A DNA stretch of 64,000 nt from Sporosalibacterium faouarense (GTDB lineage Bacteria; Bacillota; Clostridia; Tissierellales; VENL01). Both the position numbers and the translations under genes were made by a program. The number at the start of each line of letters is the position of its first letter. Position 1 is the stretch's first letter. The notes beneath the pieces are model-generated. The model did not search any database. It was not told the DNA's origin and worked only from the letters and a program-made list of their open reading frames with translations. The stretch lies in the NCBI RefSeq assembly GCF_016765695.1, contig NZ_JAETGO010000048.1:1-64000 (forward strand), read 5' to 3'. Below are positions 12,737-53,359 of the stretch, one piece after another.

Positions 12737-12748
12737 TCGTAAATTGAT

Positions 12749-12788: not shown

Positions 12789-12819
12789 AAATCTTTGTCG
12801 ATATTTATTGATTTAGTAG

Positions 12820-12863: not shown

Positions 12864-13088
12864 ATCTAACTTCAAGTCTTTTTATTACATTTTTATAACT
12901 ACTATATCCTATATTATTTATCCTGCTAATTTTCATATTCTTTCTATTATAATTTTTCATTTTTGTTTTGGAAAATCAAATGAAATTTTAGTTACTACTT
13001 GTACTATTTTACTTATATTGGTATAAACACTAGTCATTTCAACATATTCTTTAATAAGATAATAATATTATTAAGGGTGTGAGTGACT

Positions 13089-13859: not shown

Positions 13860-13860
13860 A

Positions 13861-13890
13861 AATCCTCATTCACGCGAATGAGGATTTTTT
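13861..13890. terminator. Bidirectional terminator between convergent genes
   Basis: AATCCTCATTC and GAATGAGGATT form an 11-bp stem with loop ACGC, followed by TTTT on the plus strand and preceded by A-rich sequence that gives a T-run on the minus strand. It serves the gene ending at 13859 and the minus-strand gene ending at 13909. Confidence 0.88.
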
Positions 13891-13908
13891 AATGCTTACT
13901 TTATATAA

Positions 13909-14073
13909 TTATATTTTTAGCTTCTCAAGCAATCCTTTATATACTTCTAACCTTTGATCAGGAGGAAGTTTATTGATTTTATCAATTACTAATTCAGCTA
14001 TTGCATTTCCCATGGAATTTTCTGCTCTGTCCTTATCTAATATATTCACTTCAACTTTTATTCTACTTTCCAT
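13909..14073 (-). CDS. Small 54-residue island protein
   Basis: A minus-strand ATG at 14071-14073 preceded by GGGGGAAGAG encodes 54 residues: MESRIKVEVNILDKDRAENS, then a mostly helical part ending LEVYKGLLEKLKI. The clear ribosome binding site and the shared terminator support it as real. No family recognised. It is transcribed away from recombinase 3. Confidence 0.65.
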   Translation of the reverse strand: MESRIKVEVNILDKDRAENSMGNAIAELVIDKINKLPPDQRLEVYKGLLEKLKI

Positions 14074-14280
14074 TACTCTTCCCCCTTTGTAAATGATATT
14101 CTGAGGGAAGTTTGTACTATTCTTTGAAACCTTTATATGATTAAATATAATATTTCCATTAAATCAATTAATAAATAATTACTACTATAGTACTGGCATA
14201 AGATGTAATAATAGTCTCTTATTTCATATTTTGATAAAAGGTACAACACATATCTAATATCAATTCTTAAAACAATAAAT

Positions 14281-14296
14281 ATGAAAATAGTTTCAT
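14281..14296. promoter_or_regulatory. Palindrome ATGAAA-N4-TTTCAT overlapping the start of recombinase 3
   Basis: ATGAAAATAGTTTCAT is a perfect inverted repeat with the same half-sites as 8413-8428 and 7626-7640. It abuts the Shine-Dalgarno GGAGGTG (14297-14303), so a bound regulator would block transcription or translation initiation of recombinase 3. Confidence 0.5.
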
Positions 14297-33384: not shown

Positions 33385-33486
33385 AAAAAATCCACTCCTC
33401 TTCATTTTTTAATAATTATTTTTTATAAGTCCCATAAAAATATAGGTAAGTATTTGAATAAAATCATATCCACTATAAACTGAAAT

Positions 33487-33559: not shown

Positions 33560-33655
33560 ATTAAACTTCGGCAGTTTGGCAACCATAGAGTTTTATTCCT
33601 TAGGTCCATAACTTTGCGTCCTCACCTTTCGATAAGTTTGCTATTATCGGTATAG
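33560..33655 (-). ncRNA. Cyclic-di-GMP-I (GEMM-I) riboswitch aptamer
   Basis: Minus strand reads GCAAAC, stem with GAAA tetraloop, GGACGCAAAG (33612-33621 region), GGACCTAA, then a second stem ending GGTTGCCAAACTGCCG. These are the conserved blocks of the GEMM-I class, including the GAAA tetraloop and its receptor region. It controls the downstream chemoreceptor gene, most likely through the terminator at 33487-33523. Whether ligand turns expression on or off cannot be read directly. Confidence 0.9.
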
Positions 33656-34097: not shown

Positions 34098-35105
34098 TTA
34101 CTTCTTCAACAATAAATATATAAAGTATGGAGCACCAATAAGAGAAACCATAATTCCTGCTGGTATACCATTAGGTTGAATTACATTATGTCCAATTGTA
34201 TCTGCAAATAATAACAACCAACCTCCAATCAAAACAGCAATTGGTATAGATAGCTGATTTCTAGGACCAACTAAGGTTTTTGCAATGTGGGGAGCCATTA
34301 GACCAATAAAGGAGATTCCACCAGAAACAGAAACCGCTGAAGCTGCCAGTGCTACAGCTGTTAATAAAAGCTGAATACGCTCTCTATCTACAGATATACC
34401 AACACTAATGGCTATTGGTTCACTAAGTCTTAAGATATTTAACCTATTTGCTTTATATAAAGTAAATGGAATTAAAACTATAAGCCATGGAAGAATAGCC
34501 AAAATAAAAGGCCAATCTGTTCCCCAAATATTTCCTGCTAGCCATTTTGCAATAAATTGGACTTTAACCCTTTCCGTAGAACTAATAATAACCATCATTA
34601 ATCCTGACATAGCCATGGAAAGTCCTACCCCTACAAGAACCAATCTATTAGTCTTAAGACCTTCGTTTTTTTGATAGGAAAGCACATATATTATAAAGGC
34701 TGTAATAAGTGCGCCAGCAAATGCAACTACGGGAAGTAGATAAATAAAAGAAACAGCATTAACTGGGATAAATAAAAAGAATATGGTAACAGCAACTCCT
34801 GCACCAGAATTGATACCTATAATTCCAGGGTCAGCTAAATCATTTCTTGTGATTCCTTGCAATATTGCACCTGATAAAGATAGTGCCATACCTGATAAAA
34901 AAGTAATTAAAATTCTTGGCAATCTTAGTGAAAATAAAACGAATTCTTCTTTAAAAGAGCCTTGTCCCAATAGGGTAGGTATAAGCCTATTATAAGATAA
35001 AGAAGCATCTCCAATTCCCATGCTTATAACGATTGTAGCAATGATTAATGTTAATAAAGCAAATAATGTTAATCGTTGCTTTTTAATTAAATCTGGTTGT
35101 ATCAT
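34098..35105 (-). CDS. FecCD-family permease of iron-siderophore/heme ABC importer (second permease)
   Basis: 335 residues with about nine to ten transmembrane helices and FecCD signatures: RLPRILITFLSGMALSLSGAI, QGITRNDLADPGIIGINSGAG, and near the C-terminus GGISFIGLMAPHIAK. The start ATGA overlaps the stop of the upstream permease by 4 nt. It forms a heterodimeric channel with that permease, fed by the binding lipoprotein at 36189-37172. Confidence 0.94.
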   Translation of the reverse strand: MIQPDLIKKQRLTLFALLTLIIATIVISMGIGDASLSYNRLIPTLLGQGSFKEEFVLFSLRLPRILITFLSGMALSLSGAILQGITRNDLADPGIIGINSGAGVAVTIFFLFIPVNAVSFIYLLPVVAFAGALITAFIIYVLSYQKNEGLKTNRLVLVGVGLSMAMSGLMMVIISSTERVKVQFIAKWLAGNIWGTDWPFILAILPWLIVLIPFTLYKANRLNILRLSEPIAISVGISVDRERIQLLLTAVALAASAVSVSGGISFIGLMAPHIAKTLVGPRNQLSIPIAVLIGGWLLLFADTIGHNVIQPNGIPAGIMVSLIGAPYFIYLLLKK

Positions 35106-36109
35106 GATAAAGCTTTACCCCCTTTGTGAACAATAAATAAGAAAAATGGTAACCCTAGCATTGCAACAATTGCAGCTACAGGTGTTTCATATGGAGCATT
35201 GATTGTACGTCCTAGAGTATCAGCAAGAAGCATTAAAGTAGCACCTAAAAAGATAGAAACAGGTATTATAAACCTATAATCTGTCCCAACAATTGCTCTG
35301 ACTATATGAGGTATCATTAATCCAATAAATGCTATATTTCCAACTAATGCAACTGAAGCTCCAGTAAGTACAGTAATTACAATAAAAAGTATTATTTTAA
35401 TTTGTATTGTCTTTTGCCCTAGTCCAACTGCCAATTCTTCACTTAGACTTAATATAGTAAGCTGTCTGGAAAGCATTATAGCTATAATTAGACCTACTAC
35501 TATAAATGGAATAATAATTTTTAATTGGTCCCAAGTGGTACCAATCATTCCTCCTGCTGTCCACATTGATACATCCTTTGATAGCTTAAAATATATACTA
35601 ATACCTTCTGCTATTGCATATAAAAAAGCTGAAACTGCAGCACCAGCCAATACAACTTTAAAGGGAGTAAACCCTCCCCGTTTCAAAGAGCTTATACCAA
35701 AAACTAGCATAACCCCTACTGCCGAACCTATAAAACAGGCAGTAAAAATAATATAATAATTGGCTGAAGGTATGAATGCTAACGTAATAGCCAATGCAGC
35801 ATTTGCACCTGCTGTTAATCCAAGCAATCCAGGGTCAGCCAAGGGATTTTTAGTTATTCCTTGCATAATCGCACCGGATACCGCTAATGCAGCTCCAACA
35901 AATATTGCTGCCACTTCACGAGGCAAGCGAATTTCACGTATTATTAAAATATCATCATTTATTTTACTGGATGTTAAGGAAAGCCAAACATCTTTAATGG
36001 AGATATCTGCTGCACCTACTACCATCGCCACTACAAACATTCCTATAAATGCAAGTATCACTACAAATAACTTTAATCCAAATGAAGTGACACGTTGTTT
36101 CTTTTCCAT
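35102..36109 (-). CDS. FecCD-family permease of iron-siderophore/heme ABC importer (first permease)
   Basis: ATG 36109 has AGGTGAGAG 8 nt upstream, so it is preferred to the ATG at 36130. About 335 residues with the RLPREVAAIFVGAALAVSGAI, MQGITKNPLADPGLLGLTAGAN and GNIAFIGLMIPHIVR motifs of FecCD/BtuC permeases. It pairs with the downstream permease. A hairpin at 36145-36172 separates it from the binding-protein gene. Confidence 0.94.
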   Translation of the reverse strand: MEKKQRVTSFGLKLFVVILAFIGMFVVAMVVGAADISIKDVWLSLTSSKINDDILIIREIRLPREVAAIFVGAALAVSGAIMQGITKNPLADPGLLGLTAGANAALAITLAFIPSANYYIIFTACFIGSAVGVMLVFGISSLKRGGFTPFKVVLAGAAVSAFLYAIAEGISIYFKLSKDVSMWTAGGMIGTTWDQLKIIIPFIVVGLIIAIMLSRQLTILSLSEELAVGLGQKTIQIKIILFIVITVLTGASVALVGNIAFIGLMIPHIVRAIVGTDYRFIIPVSIFLGATLMLLADTLGRTINAPYETPVAAIVAMLGLPFFLFIVHKGGKALS

Positions 36110-36144
36110 ACTAAATCTCTCACCTTTCATGTCAAAAATAAAGA

Positions 36145-36172
36145 AGAGGAACCCTTAAGTAAGAATTCCTCT
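36145..36172 (-). terminator. Intercistronic hairpin after the binding-protein gene
   Basis: AGAGGAA and TTCCTCT form a 7-bp stem with a 14-nt loop between the lipoprotein and permease genes. On the minus strand it is followed by TTCTTTATTTTTG. It probably lowers readthrough or stabilises the upstream message, so the binding protein is made in excess. Confidence 0.55.
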
Positions 36173-36188
36173 GATGACCTTCTTTTTA

Positions 36189-37172
36189 TTAGTTACCAAG
36201 TAAATTTTCTATGAAAAAGTCTAATTGATAATCTAATGTAATTGGATCATTAAAAGAGAATATATTAACGTCAACTGGAAATACACGATTATTCTTTACA
36301 GCGGGAATATTTTTATATGTCTCAGTTTCTTGGAATGAATTCTCCGCTTCTGAGTTTGTACTAAAAATTACATAGTCTCCCATATATTCAGAAAGCACCT
36401 CTGGTGATATGGCATAATACCCAGCTTCTAAAGCCATTTCTTTAACTTTCTCAGGCATTTTAAGTTTCATTTCTTGGTAAAGAATTTCCGTACCTCTACC
36501 CCAATTATCCCCGAACACATAAATTTGTTTGTTATAGCTTTCTACAACTGAAATTGTGGCGTCAGCACCAATTTTCTGTTTTACCTTTTCTCCTGCTTCT
36601 TGTGCCCTAGCTTTAAAATTATCTATCCATTCTTGAGCTTCCTGCTCTTTATTAAGCATTTTTCCAATCTCTATAATTTGAGTTAAATAATCTACCTTCC
36701 CATATGTAAAGGTCACTGTAGGAGCTATTTCACTCAACTTATCTAAGTTATTATTTGTTGGAGCAGCAACAATAAGGTCAGGCTCTAGCTCAATAATTTT
36801 CTCTAGGTTTTCATCTGATACTAGTTCAGCATCCTTTATATAATCATCATATAGTTTATTTTCCATAGTCCATGACTCCACACCAACTATGTCTTGGTCA
36901 AATTTCATAACACTTCCAGATAGGAAGGAATTCAAAACAATAATGCGTTGTGGATCAGCCGGTACTTCAATTGGACCATTCTCCGATTCATAAGTTATTG
37001 TTTGACTTTCATTTCCCTCTGATTCTTTTTCATCATCATTTGTTTGTTCCTGTGATACATTTTCCTGATTTTTACCTGTATTTGAAGATTCATCATTGTT
37101 AACAGTTTCATTGCTACAAGCACTAGTAATTAACACAAATACCATTAGAATTGAAATCAAAACTTTTTTCAT
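36189..37172 (-). CDS. Iron-siderophore/heme-type substrate-binding lipoprotein
   Basis: 327 residues. Signal peptide with lipobox LITSAC, an acidic Asn/Glu-rich linker, then a FepB/FhuD-like (BtuF-fold) domain: PQRIIVLNSFLSGSVMKFD, NLEKIIELEPDLIVAAP, and a long backbone helix. GGAGAG precedes the ATG. The start lies 50 nt inside the end of the ATPase gene, an unusually long overlap. It delivers a ferric chelate to the FecCD permeases. Confidence 0.93.
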   Translation of the reverse strand: MKKVLISILMVFVLITSACSNETVNNDESSNTGKNQENVSQEQTNDDEKESEGNESQTITYESENGPIEVPADPQRIIVLNSFLSGSVMKFDQDIVGVESWTMENKLYDDYIKDAELVSDENLEKIIELEPDLIVAAPTNNNLDKLSEIAPTVTFTYGKVDYLTQIIEIGKMLNKEQEAQEWIDNFKARAQEAGEKVKQKIGADATISVVESYNKQIYVFGDNWGRGTEILYQEMKLKMPEKVKEMALEAGYYAISPEVLSEYMGDYVIFSTNSEAENSFQETETYKNIPAVKNNRVFPVDVNIFSFNDPITLDYQLDFFIENLLGN

Positions 37173-37968
37173 TTTGTAACTCTCCTTTTAATAAATTGTA
37201 TGTAACACACATTGGTTTATTTGTCCTTGGATCTCTACTAATTTCCGCATCAATATTAAATACTTCCTTCAAAGTATCTTTATTTATTACTTCTTCACAA
37301 TTTCCAGCTTTAACTATCTGACCATCCTTAAGTGCGATTATATAGTCAGCAAATCGAGCAGCTTGATTTAAATCATGAAGAACCATGATAATAGTTCTCT
37401 TTTGTTCTTTATTTAACTTCTGCAATAATTCCAAAACTTCTAACTGATGAGCCATATCTAAATATGTAGTTGGTTCATCAAGAAATATAATCTCTGTTTC
37501 TTGCGCAAGTGCCATAGCAATCCAAACACGTTGACGCTGTCCTCCTGATAATGCGTCTATAGTACGGAACTTGTAATCTTTTGTTCCTGTTACCTCTAAT
37601 GCCCAGTCAATTACCTCATAGTCTTTTTTTGTTAATCTGCCAAATCCTTTTTGATATGGAAATCGACCATATGAAACCAATTCCCCTACTGTTAATCCAG
37701 CTGTTCCTTCTGGGGTTTGAGGAAGTATTGCCATCTTTTTCGCAAGTTTTTTTGTATTTTCATGGATAATATTTTTTCCGTCTAAAACGACAGATCCCGA
37801 TTGATGAGAAATGATACGTGTAATTGCTTTAAGTAATGTAGATTTTCCGCATCCATTTGACCCAATAATTGTAGTTATTTTCTTATCAGGTATCTCCACA
37901 CTTAAATCCTTTACAACTAAATGCTGGTCATAACCAATGTTTATACTATTGGTATATAAGCGACTCAT
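37123..37968 (-). CDS. FecE/FhuC-type ATPase of iron-siderophore/heme ABC importer
   Basis: 281 residues. Walker A GSNGCGKSTLL, Q-loop LPQTPEGTAG, signature LSGGQRQRVWIAMALAQ, Walker B IIFLDEPTTYLDM and H-loop VLHDLNQA. The last 16-17 codons overlap the binding-protein gene in another frame. First gene of the operon, driven by a consensus promoter covered downstream by a Fur box. This is the only complete iron-type ABC ATPase in the window and may also serve the second FecCD pair. Confidence 0.95.
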   Translation of the reverse strand: MSRLYTNSINIGYDQHLVVKDLSVEIPDKKITTIIGSNGCGKSTLLKAITRIISHQSGSVVLDGKNIIHENTKKLAKKMAILPQTPEGTAGLTVGELVSYGRFPYQKGFGRLTKKDYEVIDWALEVTGTKDYKFRTIDALSGGQRQRVWIAMALAQETEIIFLDEPTTYLDMAHQLEVLELLQKLNKEQKRTIIMVLHDLNQAARFADYIIALKDGQIVKAGNCEEVINKDTLKEVFNIDAEISRDPRTNKPMCVTYNLLKGELQNEKSFDFNSNGICVNY

Positions 37969-38001: not shown

Positions 38002-38020
38002 ATTGATAACGATTATCAAT
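38002..38020. promoter_or_regulatory. Fur box of the first iron-uptake operon
   Basis: ATTGATAACGATTATCAAT contains TGATAAC-G-ATTATCA, one base from the perfect 7-1-7 Fur repeat TGATAAT-N-ATTATCA. It lies just downstream of the -10 at 38036-38041, where repressor binding would block initiation. Confidence 0.88.
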
Positions 38021-38035
38021 GTCATTACATGAATC

Positions 38036-39987: not shown

Positions 39988-41199
39988 TTAAAATAATTCT
40001 TCTATCCACATTGAGCAAAGTTTAATTGCACCCCTAAATCCAATAAAGGGAGATTCATATAAATTAAAACTTCGACTATATATATCTCTAGATATACTAG
40101 TATTACATAGCCTACCTAACCTTTTTAATAGCATTGGCTGCGCCATAATAATTCCATCTAAATCTCTGGATATATTATTCATTATTTCCTTTTCTCCCCA
40201 ATATGGGATTTTATCTGTTTCATATGCTTTACTATCACAACTAATATGTTTTATTTTCATTCCTATATCGTCACAGGCAAATTTTTTAATTCCTTCTACT
40301 ACATCAATATGACCTGAAAGAGTGATCGGTCCTTTAAGAGGCCTGAAAGATACAATCTGCTTACAATAGTTATATCCATACTTTCCCTCATTCAATTCAT
40401 TTTGAAGAAATTCTTTATTTATGGGTATATCTATGATTTTAGAAATTTCTTTTAACCATTTTTCAGTTTCATTATATCCGTAGGGGCGACAGTATATATA
40501 TGGGGTATTAAATCTATCAGCTAACTCCTCTCCAGCTTTAATACCTTCTCTTCGAATAACAATATTTATATGGGTTGACCCCATCTTTTCTATGTCTGAA
40601 ATAGATGCTTCAGAGCTAAGGGTACATATTGGATTTATATCAAAAGCTCCTTTAAGCATACGCTTTATCTCTCTTACATCAGATCTATACCTAGACAGAT
40701 CACAACAGGATCCAATGATATTAAAAGATTTTTTTTCTGTCTTTTTAATAGGCAAAGCTATATTTTTAGCTAATTTAAATATAGCTTCTTCAATACCATG
40801 ATTTAACTTATCATGAAAACCCCCTCTTCTAAAGGACAAAATTTTTAAATCTTTATATTTTGCTTGTAGTTCCTCACATATTGCATCTAAATCAACACCA
40901 ATAGTTTCTGGGATAGACGAAGGTAGGAGAAAAATTGCTTTTATCTTTTTATCTTCAACTATTTTAGCAATGGCATTATCTATACGTTTAGTTATTCCTA
41001 ATGCAATATCCTTTTCATCTATATGAGTGGAAAACAGCTTACTTCTATTAATAATACCCGTCTGTTTAAGAAATCTTTCCCCATAAATCATATGTCCCAT
41101 AGACCCAAATTCTAGAATTGCTGCTTCGTCGATTGTTCCCAAAGTCCATAATAATCCCATTCGACCAGACGGTTCTGGTGTATATTTATATAATCCCAT
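39988..41199 (-). CDS. NifK/NifE-like nitrogenase-superfamily component 1 subunit lacking the usual cluster cysteines
   Basis: From ATG 41199 (AAGG 8 nt upstream; ATG 41205 is too close to it) the protein has 403 residues. Overall layout is that of component 1 subunits: GTIDEAAILEFGSMGHMIYG near the N-terminus, SSIPETIGVDLDAI, an Rossmann-like middle (NIIGSCCDLSRYRSDVREIKRML) and a C-terminal half with PYIYCRPYG. The typical GPxGC reads GSMGH (H36) and TCxxExIGDD reads SSIPETIGVD (S95), so two canonical P-cluster-type cysteines are absent. Partner of the 422-residue subunit upstream. Not a nitrogen-fixing nitrogenase. Confidence 0.82.
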   Translation of the reverse strand: MGLYKYTPEPSGRMGLLWTLGTIDEAAILEFGSMGHMIYGERFLKQTGIINRSKLFSTHIDEKDIALGITKRIDNAIAKIVEDKKIKAIFLLPSSIPETIGVDLDAICEELQAKYKDLKILSFRRGGFHDKLNHGIEEAIFKLAKNIALPIKKTEKKSFNIIGSCCDLSRYRSDVREIKRMLKGAFDINPICTLSSEASISDIEKMGSTHINIVIRREGIKAGEELADRFNTPYIYCRPYGYNETEKWLKEISKIIDIPINKEFLQNELNEGKYGYNYCKQIVSFRPLKGPITLSGHIDVVEGIKKFACDDIGMKIKHISCDSKAYETDKIPYWGEKEIMNNISRDLDGIIMAQPMLLKRLGRLCNTSISRDIYSRSFNLYESPFIGFRGAIKLCSMWIEELF

Positions 41200-41230
41200 T
41201 TTCATATCCTTTCTATCTATATAGTTGAGT

Positions 41231-41250
41231 AAATTGCATATTTACAAATC
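41231..41250. repeat. 20-bp intergenic repeat, copy 2
   Basis: Identical to 34040-34059. It lies in the 93-bp gap between the two component 1-like genes, so it is inside the putative transcript. Confidence 0.6.
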
Positions 41251-41292
41251 AAATATATTTTTGCATAAATTTTTAATATGAAATTTCCTCTG

Positions 41293-42561
41293 TTAGCTTA
41301 GTCGACTATCTATAAACTCTAATAATTTTAGAACACGTTCAAATCCAGTTAAGTTTTGAATCTTAATCATTTCTTGATCATTTAACAACACTTTTTCTTC
41401 TATTCCATTACAATTTCCTAAAGAGTATATGTCAATCTCATTGTCTAAAACCTCAGTAATTTTATCTTTATTAGTTATATAAGTAACATACGGGTCCTCA
41501 CCTAGCTCTAATAGCTTATCCTTCCATTTTAAATTAGTCATATCCATTTCCTCAATATGTAGCATAAATGGCTTAAATCCAAGCTTTATTAAAGATACAC
41601 TTAGGGGAACTGCAAGAGTAGATGGTGATGTTATAATAAAGCTCTTTTTTTCTTTTATACTTAAAATTTTTTGATAGAACTCTTCAATCCTAGGTTTCTT
41701 TTCTGTATATAAGTTTTCAAGCTTTTCTCCTGAAATATCTAAATGCTTAAATATCTTCTCGTATCTTTTTTCAACTGTATCTAAATCGTAGGCATCACAA
41801 AGGCTAATATAAGGTATTTCATACTTCTCTTTGAGCTTTTCTGCAAACTCTAGATAATTGTTAGAATATACAATATTAAGCTGAGAGCCTAGAGAACTAT
41901 TTAATTCTTCTATATCTAATTTAACTCCATATTTTAAGACGTCTATTTCTGATTCTTTCAGAATTGATTGTAATCTATTACATTCTGTTTCTCCTCCATT
42001 ACCAAGAAAGTTAACGGTGGGTTTCTTTGATTTTTCACTATCCTTTTGTACTTTAATAGCATCGGCTAAGGCAGCAAGGGTCTTGGAATATCCGTCCTTA
42101 TATCCATTTCTCTTGAAGTGGGCCATGTCAACAAATACCACTTTAACATCTGATTCATATGATATTTCTTCAATGATGGCCTGTGGGTCTTCTCCAATCA
42201 ACCCAGGAACACAGGTCATTATTATCATTATGTTTTTTGCCCCTTCTTCTGCCATCTGTAATACTGCCTTTTTTACTCCACTACTACATCCAAAGACCAC
42301 TTCGTTGGAATCTAATTCATAAACATAGTGACATTCCTCTTTAGTGTTATTAGAATAGTCCACAACAAATCTACTATAATATCCACATTCAGCCATACCA
42401 ACTACAAGACTTGAGAGACCTTTTATATTTAGTAATGTAGCCAATGTCGTATGCATGGGACAGTGACTACCTGGCGACGCAGCAGGATGTAGAAATTTAA
42501 TTCCTTTGTTATTATTAACCTGTGATAAAGTGTTAAGGTGAGTTAGTCTATTTTTATCCAT
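41293..42561 (-). CDS. NifD-like nitrogenase-superfamily component 1 subunit
   Basis: 422 residues. Three cysteines sit where NifD/BchN-type subunits bind an iron-sulfur cluster: C34 in GSHCPMHTTL, C59 in VGMAECGYY and C117 in IMTCVPGLIGED. The middle has repeated Rossmann-like segments (VNFLGNGGETECNRLQSIL, SFIITSPSTLAVPLSVSLIKLGFKP). No NifD homocitrate-cofactor pattern was recognised. The start is 4 nt after the NifH-like stop. With NifH-like and the 403-residue subunit it probably forms an ATP-driven, low-potential reductase; the substrate is unknown. Confidence 0.88.
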   Translation of the reverse strand: MDKNRLTHLNTLSQVNNNKGIKFLHPAASPGSHCPMHTTLATLLNIKGLSSLVVGMAECGYYSRFVVDYSNNTKEECHYVYELDSNEVVFGCSSGVKKAVLQMAEEGAKNIMIIMTCVPGLIGEDPQAIIEEISYESDVKVVFVDMAHFKRNGYKDGYSKTLAALADAIKVQKDSEKSKKPTVNFLGNGGETECNRLQSILKESEIDVLKYGVKLDIEELNSSLGSQLNIVYSNNYLEFAEKLKEKYEIPYISLCDAYDLDTVEKRYEKIFKHLDISGEKLENLYTEKKPRIEEFYQKILSIKEKKSFIITSPSTLAVPLSVSLIKLGFKPFMLHIEEMDMTNLKWKDKLLELGEDPYVTYITNKDKITEVLDNEIDIYSLGNCNGIEEKVLLNDQEMIKIQNLTGFERVLKLLEFIDSRLS

Positions 42562-42564
42562 AGC

Positions 42565-43314
42565 CTATATACTCCCTTGAAGTAATTTATTTGCCAAATT
42601 TACATAATCACTGGTCATTTCACTATCTGGAAAAGCGTATACCACTGTTTTATTTAAGTCCTCAGCCCTTTGAACTAGTGGATTTCTATCAATCTTATAA
42701 ATAACCTTTGTTTCTTCTTCCTTAGCAGAAGAATGAACTAGATCATCTTCATTCTCAATATTTTTTGCATTGTATATGAAGCCTTTTAATGAAGCATATC
42801 CCCTTTTTTCAAAGCTCTTAACTGCATGACAAATATTACTTGCTGCATATAAGGACATCATTTCTCCTGATGTAACTATACAAACATCATCAGCATATCC
42901 TCCACGGATGGGCATAGCAAACCCGCCACATACCACATCACCTAAAACGTCATATAATATAATATCTGGTTTAAATTTATCATATGCTTTTAGCTCCTCT
43001 AATTTCTCAAACGCTGTTATAATGCCTCTGCCAGCACACCCTATTCCAGGCAAAGGACCACCGGACTCAATACATAGAACTCCTAAATCGCCCGTAAAAA
43101 CGATATCTTCGAGCTCTATTTTATCCTTAGTGCGTAGTACATCTAATACTGTTGGTATTTTCTTTCCTTTTGTCAAATTTTTAGTAGAATCTGCCTTGGG
43201 ATCACAACCGATTTGCATGACTTTATATCCTTGCTTTGCAAAGGCTGCTGATATATTTGAAACTGTTGTTGATTTTCCTATTCCACCTTTACCATATATT
43301 GCGATTTTCTTCAT
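42565..43314 (-). CDS. NifH-like ATPase/electron-transfer iron protein
   Basis: 249 residues. P-loop GKGGIGKST (8-16), switch [10 protein letters not shown]93 in GIGCAGRG (with the NifH arginine, R96) and C129 in [16 protein letters not shown]. These two cysteines hold the intersubunit [4Fe-4S] cluster in NifH, BchL and CfbC. It is somewhat shorter than NifH (about 290). It lies directly after two FecCD permease genes and before the NifD-like gene, exactly where an uptake operon would carry its ABC ATPase. It should dock with the component 1-like proteins and pass electrons with ATP hydrolysis. Confidence 0.93.
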
Positions 43315-43330
43315 CTATTTCACCTTTCCT

Positions 43331-44347
43331 TTATGTAGCTTCTTTTTTTACTTTTCGATTTTTCATTAATAAAAATAGAAAATATGGTGCTCCTATAACT
43401 GATACTACAATTCCTGTAGGTAATTCAGCAGGTTCAATTATTGTTCTGGCAATTATATCTGCTATTAAAACCAAAAGTGCTCCTACTAATCCACTAGCTG
43501 GAAGTAATATCTTATGTTTTGGGCCAACCAATTTTCTTGATAAATGTGGCCCAATAAGTCCAACGAAACTTATACTACCACTTACTGCCACCGATGCAGC
43601 AGCTAATGCTATTGCTGTAAAAAGTAGCTTTCGTTTCTCCTTAACAACATGCATACCTAACCCTTTTGATATTGATTCTCCAAGGGCTAAAATATCAAGA
43701 TTTCTAGCCATTAACATCACAGCGATAAAACCCAAAACAATCCATGGCAATAAAGTCACAACTAGCTTCCAATTTGAGTTCCATATACTGCCTGCTTGCC
43801 ATCTGGCCAAGAAGTCATGTTGATCTTTATCTAGTTTAAGAATTATTAAAATCATAATAGAATTTATTCCAGCTTGAATAGCTACTCCATTGAGTACTAG
43901 CCGAATAGGCTCTACACCTAGAAACTTATTAGTTGATAGTTTATATATAATTGCCCCTGTAATTCCTGCACCTATAAATGAGAAAAAGGGAAGCAAAAAA
44001 ATCGAACTAAAACTTAGTGTACCTGCCATTACTATAAATATAACTACCACAAATCCTGCCCCTGCATTAATTCCAAGTAGTCCTGGATCAGACAAGGGAT
44101 TTTTTGTGATTCCTTGTAATACACACCCTGATAATGAAAATCCAATTCCTACTAGCATTGCTATGATAATTCTAGGTAATCGAAAATCCACGATAATTAG
44201 ATTTTCTTTCACAGTTCCGCCACCGAAAATAATTCTTAATAAATCTAAATAAGTAATATCCTTATATCCACTTTTTAAGCTTATTAGAATAGTTATAGGG
44301 ATAAGAGCTATCAATATGTACATAATTTGATGATTTTTTAACTTCAC
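43331..44347 (-). CDS. FecCD-family permease of nitrogenase-linked importer (second permease)
   Basis: 338 residues starting at GTG 44347, which overlaps the preceding TAG by one base and has GGGAGGG upstream. FecCD motifs RLPRIIIAMLVGIGFSLSGCV, QGITKNPLSDPGLLGINAGAG and GSISFVGLIGPHLSR are intact. It forms the channel with the permease upstream. No ABC ATPase gene follows; a NifH-like gene starts 16 nt later. Confidence 0.94.
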   Translation of the reverse strand: MKLKNHQIMYILIALIPITILISLKSGYKDITYLDLLRIIFGGGTVKENLIIVDFRLPRIIIAMLVGIGFSLSGCVLQGITKNPLSDPGLLGINAGAGFVVVIFIVMAGTLSFSSIFLLPFFSFIGAGITGAIIYKLSTNKFLGVEPIRLVLNGVAIQAGINSIMILIILKLDKDQHDFLARWQAGSIWNSNWKLVVTLLPWIVLGFIAVMLMARNLDILALGESISKGLGMHVVKEKRKLLFTAIALAAASVAVSGSISFVGLIGPHLSRKLVGPKHKILLPASGLVGALLVLIADIIARTIIEPAELPTGIVVSVIGAPYFLFLLMKNRKVKKEAT

Positions 44348-45381
44348 TATATCCCTCCCTTTTTCTTACGAGCTAAATATAAAAACACAGGTACTCCTAA
44401 TAAAGATATGATAGCACCAATAGGAATTTCTGCTGGTGGATTTATAGTTTTAGATCCAATATCGGCTAGAACTAATAGGATACTTCCAAGAACGGCACTT
44501 ACGGGAATTATTAGTCGATAATCCTTCCCCACTAGAAATCTTGCAAAATGGGGTATAAGCATCCCAACAAATGTTATCATTCCTGCTAATGCCACTGAAG
44601 TACCCGCCAATAAAACAACTATAACTGTACCAAAAAATTTAACAGCCTTAGTATTAAGTCCAAGGCCAATAGCTATCTCTTCACCAATACTCATTATTGT
44701 AATTTTTCCTGAAATAATTATGGCTAAGATAATAGCAATAGTTATTATTGGTACTCCTATGCTTACATGCTTCCATTGACTTCCCGCAACACTTCCCATT
44801 GTCCAAAATGTAACATTCTGTGTCACATTAGCTATAATTGAAATTCCTTGACTTAATGCTGAAAAAAGAGCAGTAACTGTAGCTCCAGCTAGAATCAATT
44901 TCATGGAGCTATTTCCCCCAGCAATTGCACTGCTTATAATGTATACAGAGCTGGCCCCAATCCCTGCTCCAATAAAAGACATTAAGACCATCTGTGTATA
45001 AGATATGTTGTCAATGAAAGCAAAACATATAGCTATAGCTAGAGCTGCACCCGAGCTTAATCCCATCAATCCTGAATCTGCCAGTGGATTCCTAGTTAAT
45101 CCTTGCATAATAGCTCCCGATACTGCTAATGCACTTCCAACAATAGCTGCTACAAAAACTCGAGGTAATCTCATATCCATTATTAACAGATGTTTAGGAT
45201 TGTCTGTCTCAAATGATGTAAATGCATCTATTACGGTAGATAATGATATAGATGCAGCCCCTTGAGTAACAGAGAACATTATTGCAAAAAAAAGAAATAT
45301 ACATCCAAATATTATAATCGGTAGTGCAATAGCTATCTTATTTAATTGATTTTGTTTATTATTAACTCTATCTTTAATCAT
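44347..45381 (-). CDS. FecCD-family permease of nitrogenase-linked importer (first permease)
   Basis: 344 residues; AGGAG precedes the ATG. RLPRVFVAAIVGSALAVSGAI, MQGLTRNPLADSGLMGLSSGAA and GMITFVGMLIPHFAR are the FecCD signatures. A hairpin at 45410-45447 separates it from the binding-protein gene. Together with its neighbours it would import an iron or cobalt chelate. Confidence 0.94.
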   Translation of the reverse strand: MIKDRVNNKQNQLNKIAIALPIIIFGCIFLFFAIMFSVTQGAASISLSTVIDAFTSFETDNPKHLLIMDMRLPRVFVAAIVGSALAVSGAIMQGLTRNPLADSGLMGLSSGAALAIAICFAFIDNISYTQMVLMSFIGAGIGASSVYIISSAIAGGNSSMKLILAGATVTALFSALSQGISIIANVTQNVTFWTMGSVAGSQWKHVSIGVPIITIAIILAIIISGKITIMSIGEEIAIGLGLNTKAVKFFGTVIVVLLAGTSVALAGMITFVGMLIPHFARFLVGKDYRLIIPVSAVLGSILLVLADIGSKTINPPAEIPIGAIISLLGVPVFLYLARKKKGGI

Positions 45382-45409
45382 ACTATTCTCCTATTTCTTG
45401 ACTAAATTG

Positions 45410-45447
45410 AAAGTAGATGTAAAGCGCGAAACTTTAACATCTACTTT
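45410..45447. terminator. Intercistronic hairpin after the second binding-protein gene
   Basis: AAAGTAGATGTAAAG and CTTTAACATCTACTTT pair with a single bulge. Same position as the hairpin in the first iron operon. No good T-run on the minus strand, so mRNA stabilisation or partial termination is likely. Confidence 0.55.
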
Positions 45448-45451
45448 TTTA

Positions 45452-46483
45452 TTATTTTTCAGCTAAAAGAGTTTCTACAATCTTGTCGACAGTATACACT
45501 GTTGATAATGCACTGCATGCATGACCTGATCCATCAAGTCTAAATACATGATCTTCTTTAACAGCCTTCAATGACTTCCACACAGTATTTTGACTTAACT
45601 CTTCATAAATAGCTTCATCTCCATCAAATACATTTACAAATATATAGTCTGGATTCATTTCAACCAATGCTTCCATTGAAACTTGAACGTAGTTTTCAGA
45701 TTCTGGAAATCCCTTTGGCGCATTCAATCCAAGTCCTGTTTCATCATCATACAAATCAGGTCGGTAAATACAATAGTATTTATCAGCTCCCATCATTGAA
45801 ATCATCATTACCGTCTTACCATTATAGTTTTCTTCTAATTTTTCTCTAGATTCTCTTAATTTTTCATCAACTTCTTTTATAACTTCTTCAGCTTTATCCT
45901 CTTTATTTATGGCTTTACCTACTTCACGAAGACTTAATCTCCAATCTACCTTAGTTTCTGGACCATAAACTGCTACAGGAGCAATTTTCTCAAGATTTTC
46001 AACATCAACACTATTTAAATTATATGCTTGATCTAAAATTAAATCTGGTTCTAATTCTGCTAATAGTTCTAAGTTCACTTCAGTACTCCCAATATCTATA
46101 ACTTCACTTAAATCCATGTCTTCAAAAGGATCCCATGTTGCAGTATAATTCTCAGCTCCACCTGCACCAATAGGTGTAACATCAAGCATTAATAATGTTT
46201 CCCATAGTGGTAAATATGTTGTAACTATCTTAACAGGTTCATTTTCTAAAATTACTTCTCTTCCTGCTGCATCCACATATGTATATGAAGATGCTGGCTC
46301 ACTTTCATTATCAGCTTCCTCTCCATTGTTAGACCCATATTCCATATCTTCTTCCGATTTTATGTTCTCCTTTTGATTATTTTTATCTTCTGTACTCACA
46401 TCATTGACTCCATTTTGAGAACAACCAATTATCAATGATGCAATAATTGCAATAACTATGAATAGTTTAATCTTTTTGTACAT
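45452..46483 (-). CDS. Metal-chelate substrate-binding lipoprotein of nitrogenase-linked importer
   Basis: ATG 46483 follows GGAGGG; an earlier in-frame ATG at 46495 contains that site. 343 residues: lipobox LIIGC, acidic Glu/Asn linker, then a BtuF/FepB-like domain (VKIVTTYLPLWETLLMLDVTPIGAGG, NLELLAELEPDLIL, TVMMISMMGADKYYCIY). First gene of the operon with two permeases, NifH-like and two component 1-like genes. Fur box directly upstream. Ligand is probably a siderophore, heme or related chelate. Confidence 0.92.
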   Translation of the reverse strand: MYKKIKLFIVIAIIASLIIGCSQNGVNDVSTEDKNNQKENIKSEEDMEYGSNNGEEADNESEPASSYTYVDAAGREVILENEPVKIVTTYLPLWETLLMLDVTPIGAGGAENYTATWDPFEDMDLSEVIDIGSTEVNLELLAELEPDLILDQAYNLNSVDVENLEKIAPVAVYGPETKVDWRLSLREVGKAINKEDKAEEVIKEVDEKLRESREKLEENYNGKTVMMISMMGADKYYCIYRPDLYDDETGLGLNAPKGFPESENYVQVSMEALVEMNPDYIFVNVFDGDEAIYEELSQNTVWKSLKAVKEDHVFRLDGSGHACSALSTVYTVDKIVETLLAEK

Positions 46484-46511
46484 AATACCCTCCATTAATT
46501 ATATTTTATTT

Positions 46512-46550
46512 TGATTATGATTATCATTATCATTAACAAGATATATTGTA
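46512..46550 (-). promoter_or_regulatory. Fur box and extended -10 promoter of the nitrogenase-linked operon
   Basis: TGATTAT-G-ATTATCA (46512-46526) is a 7-1-7 Fur repeat with one deviation, and a further ATTATCA follows at 46526-46533. On the minus strand TG-T-TACAAT (TACAAT at 46545-46550) is an extended -10. Fur bound here would repress the operon in iron-rich conditions. Confidence 0.82.
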
Positions 46551-46592: not shown

Positions 46593-47429
46593 TTATGGAT
46601 TTTTTCCAAATCTTTTTCTGAAGAAACTTGGGGCAAGTCCTGTATGTTTTTTGAAGATTCGGCTAAAATTAAAGGCATCCTCGTAACCTACCATTTTAGC
46701 TATTTCATTAATGGAGTAATTTTCTTGGAGTAGTAAATATTTGGCATGATTTATGCGATATTGTATCAGATACTGTTTTGGACTAATTCCAACTATTTTT
46801 GAAAAAATATAATAAAATTGTTTGCTATCCATATTTATTTTGTTAGCTAAATTCCCAACGGTTATATACTTATTGAAATTATCATGTATATATATAATAA
46901 TCTTTTGAATTAATTCATTTTCAGAACTGCTCAAACTTTCCTTTGCATACTGAAAAATTGTATCAATAACTGAATATAGCTTAGTTTTACTTTTTAACTT
47001 ATCTAAAACCCCCCCACTATTTTGATACTGTATCATTTGTCTCATATAATTATATATTTCTGAACAATATACTTTATCGATATCTACAACAAAGTGCATT
47101 TTAGACAATGGTGTCTTTGACTTTTTAGATTCTTCTATTATTTTATAGTGTAATAGAAAATATTCCCATTCAGAGTCTCCTAATACCATTTTATCCAATG
47201 GTATATTTGATCCAGCAAAAAGTATCCTCCCTGATTCTAAATAATAGTGATGTTTGTCCAAGGTAAATTTAGCTTTACCACGAACTGGAACAACAATCCC
47301 ACATCCTCCTTTCATGGTTCTCCTATTAAGATCTTTGCTTCCCTTGGGTATAGTCAATTTATAGATACCATCAATTTCAAGATTCGAGACTGAGTATTGA
47401 CTTATAACTTTATTTAAGTCTATCTTCAC
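46593..47429 (-). CDS. AraC-family transcriptional regulator
   Basis: 278 residues. Residues 175-275 are the double HTH: YITVGNLANKINMDSKQFYYIFSKIVGISPKQYLIQYRINHA and YSINEIAKMVGYEDAFNFSRIFKKHTGLAPSFFRKR. The N-terminal part has a cupin-like fold (GCGIVVPVRGKAKFTLDKHHYYLESGRILFAG). It lies upstream of and in the same direction as the nitrogenase-linked operon and probably activates it on sensing the imported chelate, in addition to Fur. Confidence 0.92.
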   Translation of the reverse strand: MKIDLNKVISQYSVSNLEIDGIYKLTIPKGSKDLNRRTMKGGCGIVVPVRGKAKFTLDKHHYYLESGRILFAGSNIPLDKMVLGDSEWEYFLLHYKIIEESKKSKTPLSKMHFVVDIDKVYCSEIYNYMRQMIQYQNSGGVLDKLKSKTKLYSVIDTIFQYAKESLSSSENELIQKIIIYIHDNFNKYITVGNLANKINMDSKQFYYIFSKIVGISPKQYLIQYRINHAKYLLLQENYSINEIAKMVGYEDAFNFSRIFKKHTGLAPSFFRKRFGKNP

Positions 47430-49605: not shown

Positions 49606-51153
49606 ATGTTACGCAAAATCAAAAATATATTAAGAGCTGCTAGAAATCAAGGTGATAAAACATATGAAAGTAAGATCGTCGATGCTAGTTATGAAAAAAA
49701 TGAAAGATTGAGTTCTTCATTGAAAAAAAATATTGACAATATAAGAAAAACTTTTGGAGACTCTGATGATTTACAGATTAGAAAAATTCCAGGGGGCTCT
49801 GTATATAACTTTGTATTGATTTTCATTGATGGATTAGTAAAGGAAGATGACTTAAATGAATTTATATTAAAATATTTTTCCTTTAAAAATAAGGAATCTA
49901 CTTCATTTAAAGAAATTATAATTAATAGCAATTTACCTGTTACTTCAATACATGAAGTTCAGGACTATAGTGATATTATTGCACATATATTAAATGGACT
50001 TTCAATTTTAATGATTGAAGGTAGTAACACTGCTTATGCTTTAGATTATATCTGCTTTAATAAAAGAAGTATAACTGACTCTAACTTAGAGAAAAATCTA
50101 AGAGGGCCAAGAGAAGCATTTATAGAAGATATTAAGACAAATTTAGCACTACTAAGAAAAAGAATTAAGAGTAGAAATTTTCAAGTTGACAAATTAACTA
50201 TTGGATCTAGAACAAACACTGATGTTGCTATTGTATACATAAGGGATATCGTTAATCTTGACATTGTTAATGAGGTAAAGAGCAGACTTGTCAATATCAA
50301 TTATGATGATGTCCAAGATTCTACGTACTTAGCTCACTTAATCAGTGATAACCCTATTACTATTTTTCCATTAATGGCACCAACAGAAAAACCAGACAAG
50401 GTAAGCTCAAGTCTTTTAAACGGGAGAATTGCTTTGTTATCCGACAATAGCCCTACCGCAATCTTACTACCATCAGTTTTTACTGATTTTTTACATGTTC
50501 AAGATGATTTTTATGAAAGATTTTATAGTGCATTTGCCTCTAGAGTTATACGTTATATAGGTGCATTTTTAGCTGTATTTTCAACGCCTATTTATATTGC
50601 ACTTACTGCTGTAAATGTAGATATGCTCCCTACAAAGCTTGCAATTCCTTTTTCTCAGGTTAGATATGTTGTTCCATTTCCTCTAATAGTAGAAGCTCTA
50701 ATAATGGAAATTACTTTAGAAGTTTTAAGAGAGGCTGGCTTAAGAATTCCAAATCCTATAGGACCTGCTATTAGTATAGTTGGAGGATTAGTTGTAGGGC
50801 AAACCGCTGTAAATGCTGGACTTATTAGCCCTTTCCTGACTATTATTGTAGCATTATCAGCAATAGGTTCATTTACAGTCACTTCAGTAGACTTAGTTAC
50901 TTCCTTAAGAATTATAAAGTTTTTATTTATAATAAGTTCAGGTGTATTTGGGTTGTTTGGATTAGGAGCTTCAGTATCATTATTAATTATACATTCTTGC
51001 TCTTTAACTTCTTTTGGAGTTCCTTACCTAGCTCCATTTAGTGAGACGAGTATTAAAGATGCCTTTAATAGTATTTTTAGGAAACCTTTTATCATAGATT
51101 TCGAAAGGAACAGATACTATAGAATTAAAAATGAAACAAGGGTGAAAAAATGA
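49606..51153 (+). CDS. Spore germinant receptor subunit A (GerA family)
   Basis: 515 residues; AAGGTGGAG before the ATG. Soluble N-terminal domain (about 1-275) and membrane domain, with the GerA-family sequences TDFLHVQDDFYERFYSAFASRVIRYIGAFLAVFSTPIYIAL and REAGLRIPNPIGPAISIVGGLVVGQTAVNAG. First of three overlapping genes A-B-C. The complex in the inner spore membrane senses germinants. The B subunit start overlaps this stop by 4 nt. Confidence 0.95.
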   Translation: MLRKIKNILRAARNQGDKTYESKIVDASYEKNERLSSSLKKNIDNIRKTFGDSDDLQIRKIPGGSVYNFVLIFIDGLVKEDDLNEFILKYFSFKNKESTSFKEIIINSNLPVTSIHEVQDYSDIIAHILNGLSILMIEGSNTAYALDYICFNKRSITDSNLEKNLRGPREAFIEDIKTNLALLRKRIKSRNFQVDKLTIGSRTNTDVAIVYIRDIVNLDIVNEVKSRLVNINYDDVQDSTYLAHLISDNPITIFPLMAPTEKPDKVSSSLLNGRIALLSDNSPTAILLPSVFTDFLHVQDDFYERFYSAFASRVIRYIGAFLAVFSTPIYIALTAVNVDMLPTKLAIPFSQVRYVVPFPLIVEALIMEITLEVLREAGLRIPNPIGPAISIVGGLVVGQTAVNAGLISPFLTIIVALSAIGSFTVTSVDLVTSLRIIKFLFIISSGVFGLFGLGASVSLLIIHSCSLTSFGVPYLAPFSETSIKDAFNSIFRKPFIIDFERNRYYRIKNETRVKK

Positions 51154-52232
51154 AGGATAGAAAAATAAATATTTATCAATATAGAGCAATATTAATAACT
51201 GCTACTATCGGTATAGGTCTTATAACATTGCCAAGAGCACTGGCAAATAAAGTTAGTACAGCATCGTGGTTGGCGATGACTTTGGGTACAGTAATTCTTA
51301 TTGTAATCTCTTTTCTAATTTTAAGATTACTAAATTATTTCCCTAACAATAATATATATGAAATTTCGCAAACTATTTTAGGTAAATATTTATCAATAAT
51401 AATTACGCTTATTTTTATCTCTTATTATACTCTTGTAACCTCATCAACAGTACGATTTACAACCGATGCTATTAATGTTTGGATGCTACCTTTAACTCCT
51501 ATGAGTGCAATTATTTTTATATTATTAATTGTATCTTCCTATGTATGTCTTAAAGGTACTGAAACTTTAGGTAGGTTTTGTACAGCTTTTTTATTTTTTA
51601 ATATTTTGTCTGTTTTATTAGTGCTATTCTTTACATTTACAAAAGTCAAGCCTTATAATATACAGCCATATTTTCATACTACTTTTGTTGAATTGCTTAA
51701 AGGAACTAAAGAATCTCTACTCTCCTTACTTGGAATTGAAACTTTTTTTGTTTTCCATAAATTTATAAATAACGAACAAGATGTTGCTTCTAGTACTTAT
51801 AAAAGTATTATTTTTATTGGAATATTATATGTATTATTGGTGGAAGCTACAATTGGCTATTTTGGAGTGGATCAAATTAAAACTCTTGTTTTTCCCGTAA
51901 TTAGTTTATTTAAAACTATAGAAGTTCGCTACTTTATATTTGAACGTATAGAATTATTTTTTCTAACTCTTTGGTTAGCAGCTGCATTCACTACCATATG
52001 TATTTATTACTATTGTGGATTCTATCTTCTTAAGGTTTTACTACCTAAAAAGGTTTCCCATGCAATTTTACCTATTTATTTTGCTATAACTTTTTATTTA
52101 TCGAGACTTCCTCAAAATATAGATGAAACATTTAAATTATTAAATTATACTGGAAATCTTGGAATTCTTATATGTCTTATTATTACTGTATTACTTTTAA
52201 GTATCGGAAAAATTAGAGGTGTATTTAGATGA
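51150..52232 (+). CDS. Spore germinant receptor subunit B (GerB family, spore permease)
   Basis: 360 residues, ten membrane helices, APC-superfamily spore permease. Motifs: ATIGIGLITLPRALANK near the N-terminus and FFVFHKFINNEQD in the middle. Start ATGA overlaps the gerA-type stop by 4 nt. In GerAB proteins this subunit binds the germinant. Confidence 0.95.
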   Translation: MKDRKINIYQYRAILITATIGIGLITLPRALANKVSTASWLAMTLGTVILIVISFLILRLLNYFPNNNIYEISQTILGKYLSIIITLIFISYYTLVTSSTVRFTTDAINVWMLPLTPMSAIIFILLIVSSYVCLKGTETLGRFCTAFLFFNILSVLLVLFFTFTKVKPYNIQPYFHTTFVELLKGTKESLLSLLGIETFFVFHKFINNEQDVASSTYKSIIFIGILYVLLVEATIGYFGVDQIKTLVFPVISLFKTIEVRYFIFERIELFFLTLWLAAAFTTICIYYYCGFYLLKVLLPKKVSHAILPIYFAITFYLSRLPQNIDETFKLLNYTGNLGILICLIITVLLLSIGKIRGVFR

Positions 52233-53359
52233 GGAAAATATGCTTGTTATTGATTTTTATTCTTACAATAATCCTTATGATAGGTTGTTGGGATTTTAAA
52301 CAAATAGATAATTATTATATTTTAACAGGTCTCTCAATTGATAAAGGTGAAGATAATGAACTAATAGTTTCAACAAGAATATCTGCTCCAATAACTGGAT
52401 TACAGACATCTAATACCTTCACAACAGAAGGGAGAGTAATATCTCGTAAAGGTACTACTATCTTAAATGCTTTACAAAAAATGAGCAATGAACTAAAAAA
52501 AGAAATTTTCCTAGGTCATTTACAGGTTATTATCATTAGCAAAGAAATTGCTAAAACTGATGTTGCAAATATAGTCGATAGCTTATCTAGAAATCCAAAT
52601 ATACAGAGAAAACTCTATATTATAGTTTGCCAAGAAGAAGCGAAAAAAGTAATGGAGGCTGTTAATCCTTTAGATGTTGCCCCTATACCTGATTTAGTGA
52701 ATATGTTTGATATTAATAAGACCAATAACTTTATACCTATAACCTTGGATGAATTCATTTTTAAATACAAGAGTTCTGGATATGACGCCTTATTACCTAT
52801 TGCAAAGGTTTCTAATCAAATCATTGAAGTTAATGGTATGGCTATTTTCCATAATAATAGTTATATAGGAGAATTAAATGGTGAAGAATCAAGAGTGCTC
52901 TCCCTATTAATTTATCCTAAATTTACTACAGAATACTATACCTTATCACAGAAAGATACAAAAAATACTAGTGATTTTGTCACTGTAAAAATTGATAATA
53001 AATCTAGTAAAATTAAAGTTAACCTCAAGGATAATCGTATAGAAACTAAACTATATATTAAATTATATGCTCAAATAACTGAATACTCAAACACTAAAGA
53101 GAATCAAGATGTTCAACAACTATATAATATTGTTTCAAAACAGCTAGAAGAACGTTTAAAAATAGAATTAGAGTCGCTTATAAAAAAATCAAAAGAATAC
53201 AATACAGATATATTGGGCATTGGCAAATATGTTAGGGCAAAATATCAAGATTATTGGGACACTATAAACTGGGAGGATAAATATTCAAATACCAAATTTA
53301 GTACTGACATAAACGTAATAATAAGATCATCATCTTCAACTAAGCTTATTGCAAATTGA
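52229..53359 (+). CDS. Spore germinant receptor subunit C (Ger(x)C lipoprotein)
   Basis: 376 residues. Lipobox MIGCWD with the universal CWDxxEI-like GerC start (GCWDFKQIDNYYILTGLSIDKG) and the FLGHLQVIIISKEIA motif. Start overlaps the B subunit stop by 4 nt. Completes the three-gene germinant receptor operon. Confidence 0.95.
   Translation: MRKICLLLIFILTIILMIGCWDFKQIDNYYILTGLSIDKGEDNELIVSTRISAPITGLQTSNTFTTEGRVISRKGTTILNALQKMSNELKKEIFLGHLQVIIISKEIAKTDVANIVDSLSRNPNIQRKLYIIVCQEEAKKVMEAVNPLDVAPIPDLVNMFDINKTNNFIPITLDEFIFKYKSSGYDALLPIAKVSNQIIEVNGMAIFHNNSYIGELNGEESRVLSLLIYPKFTTEYYTLSQKDTKNTSDFVTVKIDNKSSKIKVNLKDNRIETKLYIKLYAQITEYSNTKENQDVQQLYNIVSKQLEERLKIELESLIKKSKEYNTDILGIGKYVRAKYQDYWDTINWEDKYSNTKFSTDINVIIRSSSSTKLIAN

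Follow-up and report, generated by a model that had tools for sequence, protein, structure and literature searches.

A 64,000-nucleotide (nt) stretch (the window) of the draft genome of Sporosalibacterium faouarense (4.12 Mb, 97% complete) carries a minus-strand operon in which the genes for a siderophore-binding lipoprotein and two FecCD-type permeases are followed by NifH-, NifD- and NifK-like genes (H, D and K below). The gene set is a real, widespread and poorly known system, found in dozens of anaerobic species. With a probability of about 60%, the operon would import a ferric siderophore and release its iron in the cytoplasm by means of a two-component reductase resembling DPOR (BchL-BchNB).

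Operon organization and predicted regulation

Read along the minus strand, the order is AraC-family regulator, Fur box, binding lipoprotein, permeases 1 and 2, and the NifH-, NifD- and NifK-like genes (Table 1), with all Pfam assignments of the operon far over cut-off. Gene set, order and single direction are as described in an initial annotation made from the letters alone, which had also rightly placed a Fur box in front and an AraC gene further upstream. The overlaps or short gaps it mentioned are present as well (permease 1/permease 2, 1-nt overlap; permease 2/NifH-like, 16 nt; NifH-like/NifD-like, 3 nt; NifD-like/NifK-like, 87 nt), but the 70-nt gap between the lipoprotein and permease 1 holds a stable hairpin, a common device that would give more binding protein than permease. 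For the lipoprotein, translation more likely starts at the second ATG (46483), because this codon has GGAGGG in front of it.

Fur-box matches with up to three mismatches number four in the window against 0.22 expected. The box in front of the operon lies at the promoter, as in a Fur regulon, and regulation by Fur is predicted from this motif. The AraC gene heads the operon in most relatives, and its product shows weak similarity to Btr, the bacillibactin regulator (79.8 bits against a cut-off of 900). A Peripla_BP_2 lipoprotein together with FecCD permeases corresponds to an importer of the FecBCDE type, while the Fer4_NifH and Oxidored_nitro domains of the H-D-K proteins place these in the nitrogenase superfamily. 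Scanning for rho-independent terminators gave no excess over shuffled sequences.

The nitrogenase-like component

The component-1 tree comprised 77 proteins, with NifDK, NifEN, a Mar-like set, BchNB and CfbD as references and no Rhodospirillum rubrum Mar or Isr sequence itself. The NifD-like subunits of the window family (clade A) and of a sister clade (B) form one group (support 95) and the NifK-like subunits another (support 98), both separate from all the references. The deeper order is unsafe, since the reference branches are long. Clustering with Mar-like proteins or CfbD, an outcome that would have counted as refuting the initial annotation's proposal, was not seen. The phylogeny it had called for resolved D and K but not the iron protein, which lies near CfbC in the NifH tree, with the family not separable from CfbC (62/92). 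With the CfbC model (NF033200) the NifH-like protein scores 336.8 bits, below the cut-off of 402, and its P-loop, Cys93 and Cys129 are invariant in 67-68 of 68 relatives.

The conserved residues of clade A are consistent with a cluster held between two subunits. NifD-like Cys34 (75/75), Cys59 (76/76) and Cys117 (77/77) are invariant and NifK-like His38 is kept in 73 of 74 sequences. In the joint alignment, the three Cys of D fall on three Cys of BchN/NifD, and His38 of K stands at the column of BchB Asp36 and NifK Cys95. The ligands of the iron-molybdenum cofactor (FeMoco) are lost in the window, where the alpha-Cys275 column holds Ser and the alpha-His442 column a gap; NifB was not found in the genome, nor was a second component-1 pair (NifEN) with the D query. 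Since both FeMoco ligands and NifB are absent, a DPOR-like [4Fe-4S] cluster and a substrate cavity are expected and no complex cofactor, and the ligand loss, as far as an alignment can tell, argues against a nitrogenase-type metallocluster in this family. The simplest reading would be an enzyme of DPOR type in which each half holds one [4Fe-4S] cluster and an adjoining substrate cavity, His38 of K being probably the fourth cluster ligand.

Structures were predicted as AlphaFold2 single chains. The NifK-like model (mean predicted local distance difference test, pLDDT, 89.2) has DPOR BchB as its closest fold (Z 39.4, 2.9 Å over 390 residues); nitrogenase and NifEN chains reach Z ≤33.5. The NifD-like model (pLDDT 89.9) shows the nitrogenase component-1 fold with Z of 24.6-26.1 throughout, which does not discriminate. 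Both subunits resemble NifEN.

Evidence on the substrate

Among related permease-bearing operons, 18 of 52 have Fur boxes with at most three mismatches, compared with 1 of 1040 shuffled sets; per promoter, the figures are 22/115 against 4/733 background starts. In hosts with an outer membrane, TonB siderophore receptors (TIGR01783 above cut-off) lie beside the operon in Pelosinus, Anaerospora and Sporomusa, and an IreA/CirA-like TonB receptor does so in Seleniivibrio. The best PDB match of the window binding protein is FeuA (2why, E 2.1e-22), followed by YfmC, FhuD and YfiY. Neither the window nor any of seven related loci showed a cobalamin riboswitch, and no riboswitch explains the regulation there. 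In the survey of 20 operon-bearing genomes, none had a SIP-type reductase, control genomes behaving as expected, and at most two had FhuF_C matches, one of which is weak and spans a reading frame interrupted by a stop. Taken together, the Fur boxes, the TonB receptors, the FeuA-like protein, the lack of a cobalamin riboswitch and of SIPs and the near lack of FhuF speak for ferric-siderophore reduction, with catecholates as the favoured but unproven ligand type. The reduction of an imported chelate that the initial annotation had proposed fits this Fur-controlled import context, with the reductase acting inside the cell, and the annotation's choice among siderophore, heme and corrinoid is narrowed to siderophore.

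Distribution and earlier reports

Relatives were collected by a profile search with the NifK-like subunit, which gave 80 loci from named genomes, 63 of them with at least 7 kb of upstream sequence for the survey of gene order. A single-sequence scan of genome contigs with the NifD-like protein found no relatives, and none were found on viral contigs. A permease gene lies within 10 genes in 51 of the 63 loci, and this recurring arrangement with importers of siderophore type adds to the case for siderophore reduction. Clustering of neighbours revealed no further conserved gene beside the operon.

Some operons carry MsbA-like exporters between binding protein and permease. The whole system, with a TonB siderophore receptor, stands on a 131-kb plasmid (pSPTER) of Sporomusa termitida (L131, 1588-14037), so that it may move between strains. 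The archaeal Candidatus Methanoplasma (L081 and G441) has a clade A D/K pair beside a binding protein and permeases; its K groups among clostridial sequences, which suggests horizontal transfer. In two Paenibacillus species (L080, 5421-6734; L082), a 437-residue gene, divergent from H-D-K, separates the gene for the binding protein from that for AraC; the one in L080 encodes an NtaA/DmoA-type flavin mononucleotide (FMN) monooxygenase. In a third variant (L027, 5368-11553), the genes for binding protein, permease and ATPase come after the NifH-, NifD- and NifK-like genes; D there lacks the first cluster Cys, and K has Cys at the His38 column. At L028 (6961-10363), a 724-residue open reading frame has a NifH-like part 48% identical to that of the window, apparently fused to something else, with a different, possibly ECF-type, ATP-binding cassette (ABC) transporter before it and a distant NifK-like gene after it.

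Related gene sets have been described before. The passages of Dos Santos et al. (2012) on these genes (PMC3464626) report NifEN-like genes beside ABC transporters in clostridia (Clostridium botulinum, Alkaliphilus oremlandii), one subunit having three P-cluster Cys and its partner none, and suggest metal transport coupled to cofactor assembly. The corresponding part of the Desulfitobacterium hafniense DCB-2 genome paper lists a strongly air-induced 'Nif operon IV' with AraC and transporter genes (PMC3306737), whose locus-tag numbers would fit the clade B order H-binding protein-permease-FecE-D-K. To judge from the descriptions, these sets probably belong to the same family or to sister clade B: they share AraC and/or ABC genes, a NifH, a D with three P-cluster Cys and a K with none. 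They differ in that those passages report neither a Fur box or receptor nor a phylogeny or a link to siderophores, and leave the function open. New here are the two-permease operon type and its spread, the evidence from Fur boxes and TonB receptors, the phylogenetic separation, the Cys3-His pattern and the secondary loss of the ATPase.

Proposed mechanism and alternatives

In the mechanism that we infer, from cluster type, substrate and direction of the chemistry to the sharing of an ATPase and every catalytic step, the intact ferric siderophore would enter through the binding lipoprotein and the two permeases, energised by an ATPase borrowed from the neighbouring operon. The NifH-like homodimer would take electrons from ferredoxin or flavodoxin and pass them, with ATP, to a NifDK-like tetramer, each half of which would hold a [4Fe-4S] cluster on Cys34, Cys59 and Cys117 of D and probably His38 of K. 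The cavity next to the cluster would hold the ferric siderophore, as that of DPOR holds protochlorophyllide; one-electron reduction of the bound Fe(III) would then free Fe(II), since the chelator holds Fe(II) poorly. ATP would bring within reach chelates of a potential so low that ordinary reductases based on ferredoxin or flavin fail. Such ATP-driven transfer would matter for tris-catecholates, the potentials of which are well below those of ferredoxins and FhuF. Where MsbA-like exporters are present, they could re-export the freed ligand.

A wider claim, put forward more tentatively and at slightly under even odds, is that anaerobes use this widespread branch of the nitrogenase superfamily to reduce ferric siderophores at the expense of ATP, with an unusual Cys3-His [4Fe-4S] cluster that is DPOR-like, and for chelates whose stability defeats reductases based on ferredoxin or flavin.

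Several points weigh against siderophore reduction. H-D-K sets occur without nearby permeases in 12 of the 63 loci, so the importer link is not obligatory. In clade B the His38 column holds Thr, which makes the fourth ligand uncertain, and the ligand set may differ there. Similarity to FeuA does not fix the ligand. The survey of SIP and FhuF covered operon-bearing genomes alone. The PF00756 esterase of weak enterochelin-esterase similarity that ends the Sporomusa termitida operon counts in favour but is a single case. Air induction in D. hafniense fits, since iron limitation would predict it, but oxygen induction has other readings, and that operon was compared by description. Finally, no functional study, biochemistry or expression data for the window family were found in the open literature. 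Permease-less sets include L054, L064, L072, L078, L085, L095, L098, L105, L122 and L123.

Since FecCD importers also carry heme and B12, and K and H come closest to DPOR BchB in fold and to CfbC models, respectively, the imported chelate might be a metallated tetrapyrrole (heme, corrinoid or Ni-tetrapyrrole) with its macrocycle reduced as by DPOR or CfbCD, for salvage or dismantling. This is unlikely in view of the missing cobalamin riboswitches, the siderophore-type TonB receptors (B12 and heme models being far weaker) and the binding protein nearest to FeuA. In addition, BchB Asp274 is not conserved, and separate corrinoid importers are encoded at other places in the genome, next to cob/cbi-like genes.

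The NifEN likeness of both subunits and the co-location with metal import noted in the relevant passages of Dos Santos et al. (PMC3464626) would suit their suggestion, here taken as a NifDK-like scaffold that builds an Fe-S or other metallocofactor from imported metal. We consider this improbable: the genome lacks NifB and has one NifH and one D/K-like set only, with no second component-1 pair as cofactor recipient, the FeMoco Cys and His positions are lost, and the neighbourhood of the operon shows no recurring gene for a client enzyme.

Reductive cleavage of the organic ligand, for instance at C-S or C=N bonds of a thiazoline or oxazoline chelator, would free both metal and nutrients, and the superfamily does include the C-S-breaking Mar (PMC12552129) and Isr of sulfonate assimilation (PMC11423573); the monooxygenase beside the Paenibacillus binding protein would also suit it. 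This reading is improbable, given that Mar uses nitrogenase metalloclusters and a Mar-like sequence keeps the FeMoco Cys that the window family has lost, that the tree sets D and K away from Mar-like proteins, and that the MsbA-like exporters would rather suit re-export of an intact ligand. A chelated metal other than iron (Ni, Co, Mo or Zn) is very improbable with Fur boxes in the window and in 18 of 52 operons and with receptors and binding protein of iron-siderophore type, even if FecBCD-type importers serve several metallophores and 34 of the 52 operons have no recognisable Fur box.

Loss of the ATPase gene

Inside the operon there is no FecE-type gene, as the initial annotation had observed, nor space for one, so the importer lacks an ATPase of its own operon. 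The annotation's further idea, that the NifH-like gene occupies the slot of the ATPase, does not hold, since most relatives have FecE immediately before NifH. The idea of NifH standing in for the ABC ATPase was dismissed because the two genes are adjacent in most operons. The survey of gene order that it had proposed showed that the set recurs: permease-permease-FecE-H-D-K is found in 36 of the 63 loci (32, plus 4 with a slightly longer FecE) and permease-permease-H-D-K without FecE, as in the window, in 4 (L084, L087, L089 and L118). The nearest relatives of the window proteins (L049, L050, L103, L106) all retain FecE. The ATPase has therefore been lost in this lineage; judged from gene order, its absence is a lineage-level secondary event and not part of the design, with similar losses elsewhere.

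Only three FecE-like ATPases are encoded in the genome. One lies about 2 kb downstream of the operon, in a separate promoter unit; the other two were rejected as dedicated ATPases, being located with cobalamin-type genes. The neighbouring ATPase is 56-59% identical to FecE of sister operons and was placed without support in the ATPase tree. As the best available guess, and as the initial annotation had suggested, it is the probable shared energiser of the importer. Contig C88 of the same genome (L172, 7868-9897) has a binding protein and a single FecCD permease with no ATPase beside them, and ATPase sharing may therefore be usual in this genome.

Table 1. Features of the operon and of the neighbouring siderophore operon in the window.
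Feature	Position	Strand	Evidence
AraC-family regulator	46593..47429	-	HTH_18/HTH_AraC domains
Fur box GATAATGATAATCATAATC	46513..46531	-	1 mismatch in 19 against GATAATGATAATCATTATC; overlaps predicted promoter
Predicted promoter ATGATA-18-TATAAT	46527-46498	-	-10/-35-like pair, overlapped by Fur box
Siderophore-binding lipoprotein	45452..46495	-	Peripla_BP_2 (PF01497), 101 bits
Intercistronic RNA hairpin, binding protein/permease 1	45410..45447	-	-15.8 kcal/mol, z -2.82
FecCD-type permease 1	44347..45381	-	PF01032, 295.6 bits
FecCD-type permease 2	43331..44347	-	PF01032, 309.5 bits
NifH/CfbC-like iron protein (predicted ATP-dependent reductase component)	42565..43314	-	PF00142 (Fer4_NifH), 305.6 bits
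NifD-like subunit of catalytic component	41293..42561	-	PF00148 (Oxidored_nitro), 157.7 bits
NifK-like subunit of catalytic component	39988..41205	-	PF00148 (Oxidored_nitro), 172.4 bits
Neighbouring operon promoter TTGACA-17-TATAAT	38064-38036	-	12/12 consensus
Weaker Fur box of neighbouring operon	38005..38023	-	3 mismatches; just downstream of the 12/12 consensus promoter
FecE-type ABC ATPase of neighbouring siderophore operon	37123..37968	-	PRK11231 FecE, 315 bits
Neighbouring binding protein and two permeases (outside system proper)	34098..37172	-	
Neighbouring binding protein	36189-37172	-	Peripla_BP_2
Neighbouring permeases	35102-36130 and 34098-35105	-	FecCD matches

Other features of the window

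Two genes downstream of the operon, before the neighbouring siderophore operon, were read by eye from their translations as L-serine dehydratase subunits. A c-di-GMP-I riboswitch (33567-33652, minus strand, 78.5 bits) lies directly upstream of a likely methyl-accepting chemotaxis protein gene (31270-33405). On the plus strand, several large open reading frames close together at 9583-15917 appear by eye to be serine site-specific recombinases, possibly an integrated element or its remnant, and three genes at 49606-53359, likewise judged by eye from the translations, resemble a GerA-type spore-germination receptor operon.

Significance

Iron recovery from siderophores by strict anaerobes has received little study, and known ferric-siderophore reductases are missing from most genomes of the survey. 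If the proposal is right, siderophore iron would be released in a third way, in addition to esterases and ordinary reductases. The nitrogenase superfamily would gain metal chelates as a new substrate class, one clade of its group IV would be defined by function, and many 'nifH-like' amplicon sequences would be signs of iron scavenging, not nitrogen fixation. With two soluble components and a Fur-controlled importer, the operon is a compact, testable target.

Comparison with known systems

Nitrogenase NifHDK differs from this set in having the FeMoco ligands and the accompanying NifB and NifEN. The methylthio-alkane and isethionate reductases (Mar and Isr) are likewise three-gene H-D-K sets of group IV with substrates other than N2, and Isr has importer genes nearby (PMC11423573). 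The metalloclusters of Mar are those of nitrogenase (PMC12552129), and the cofactor Cys is kept in the Mar-like sequence but missing in the window family. The Mar-like references (L018, L019 and others) fall outside the clades supported at 95-98%; for L018/L029_9 the best PDB match is Mar.

CfbCD resembles the set in its iron protein and in having no FeMoco-type ligands. It differs in lacking the distinct K subunit found here; D and K are in clades separate from CfbD and score 21.5 and 28.3 bits with the CfbD model (TIGR03282) against a cut-off of 268, and the iron protein is under the CfbC cut-off. DPOR shares more: an ATP-driven donor of NifH type, a heteromeric component 1 without FeMoco site, three Cys of one subunit plus one residue of the other at the [4Fe-4S] ligand columns, and the fold of BchB, nearest to that of K. 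Yet the fourth ligand column holds His here instead of Asp36, the Asp274 column holds Lys, all DPOR model scores are under cut-off (BchB 93 against 490 bits; BchL 207 against 345), and the genome context is siderophore import.

FhuF and SIP/YqjH perform the job proposed here, cytoplasmic reductive iron release after FecBCDE-type import. Neither is known to use ATP or to share sequence ancestry with the NifHDK-like set. FhuF is a [2Fe-2S] protein of about -0.36 V at pH 7.4 (PMC8068687), while SIPs are flavoproteins. FeuABC-YusV, the bacillibactin importer of Bacillus subtilis, has no nitrogenase-like genes but resembles the operon in its FeuA-like binding protein and Btr-like AraC regulator. 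Its two permeases work with an ATPase encoded elsewhere, as those of the operon probably do.

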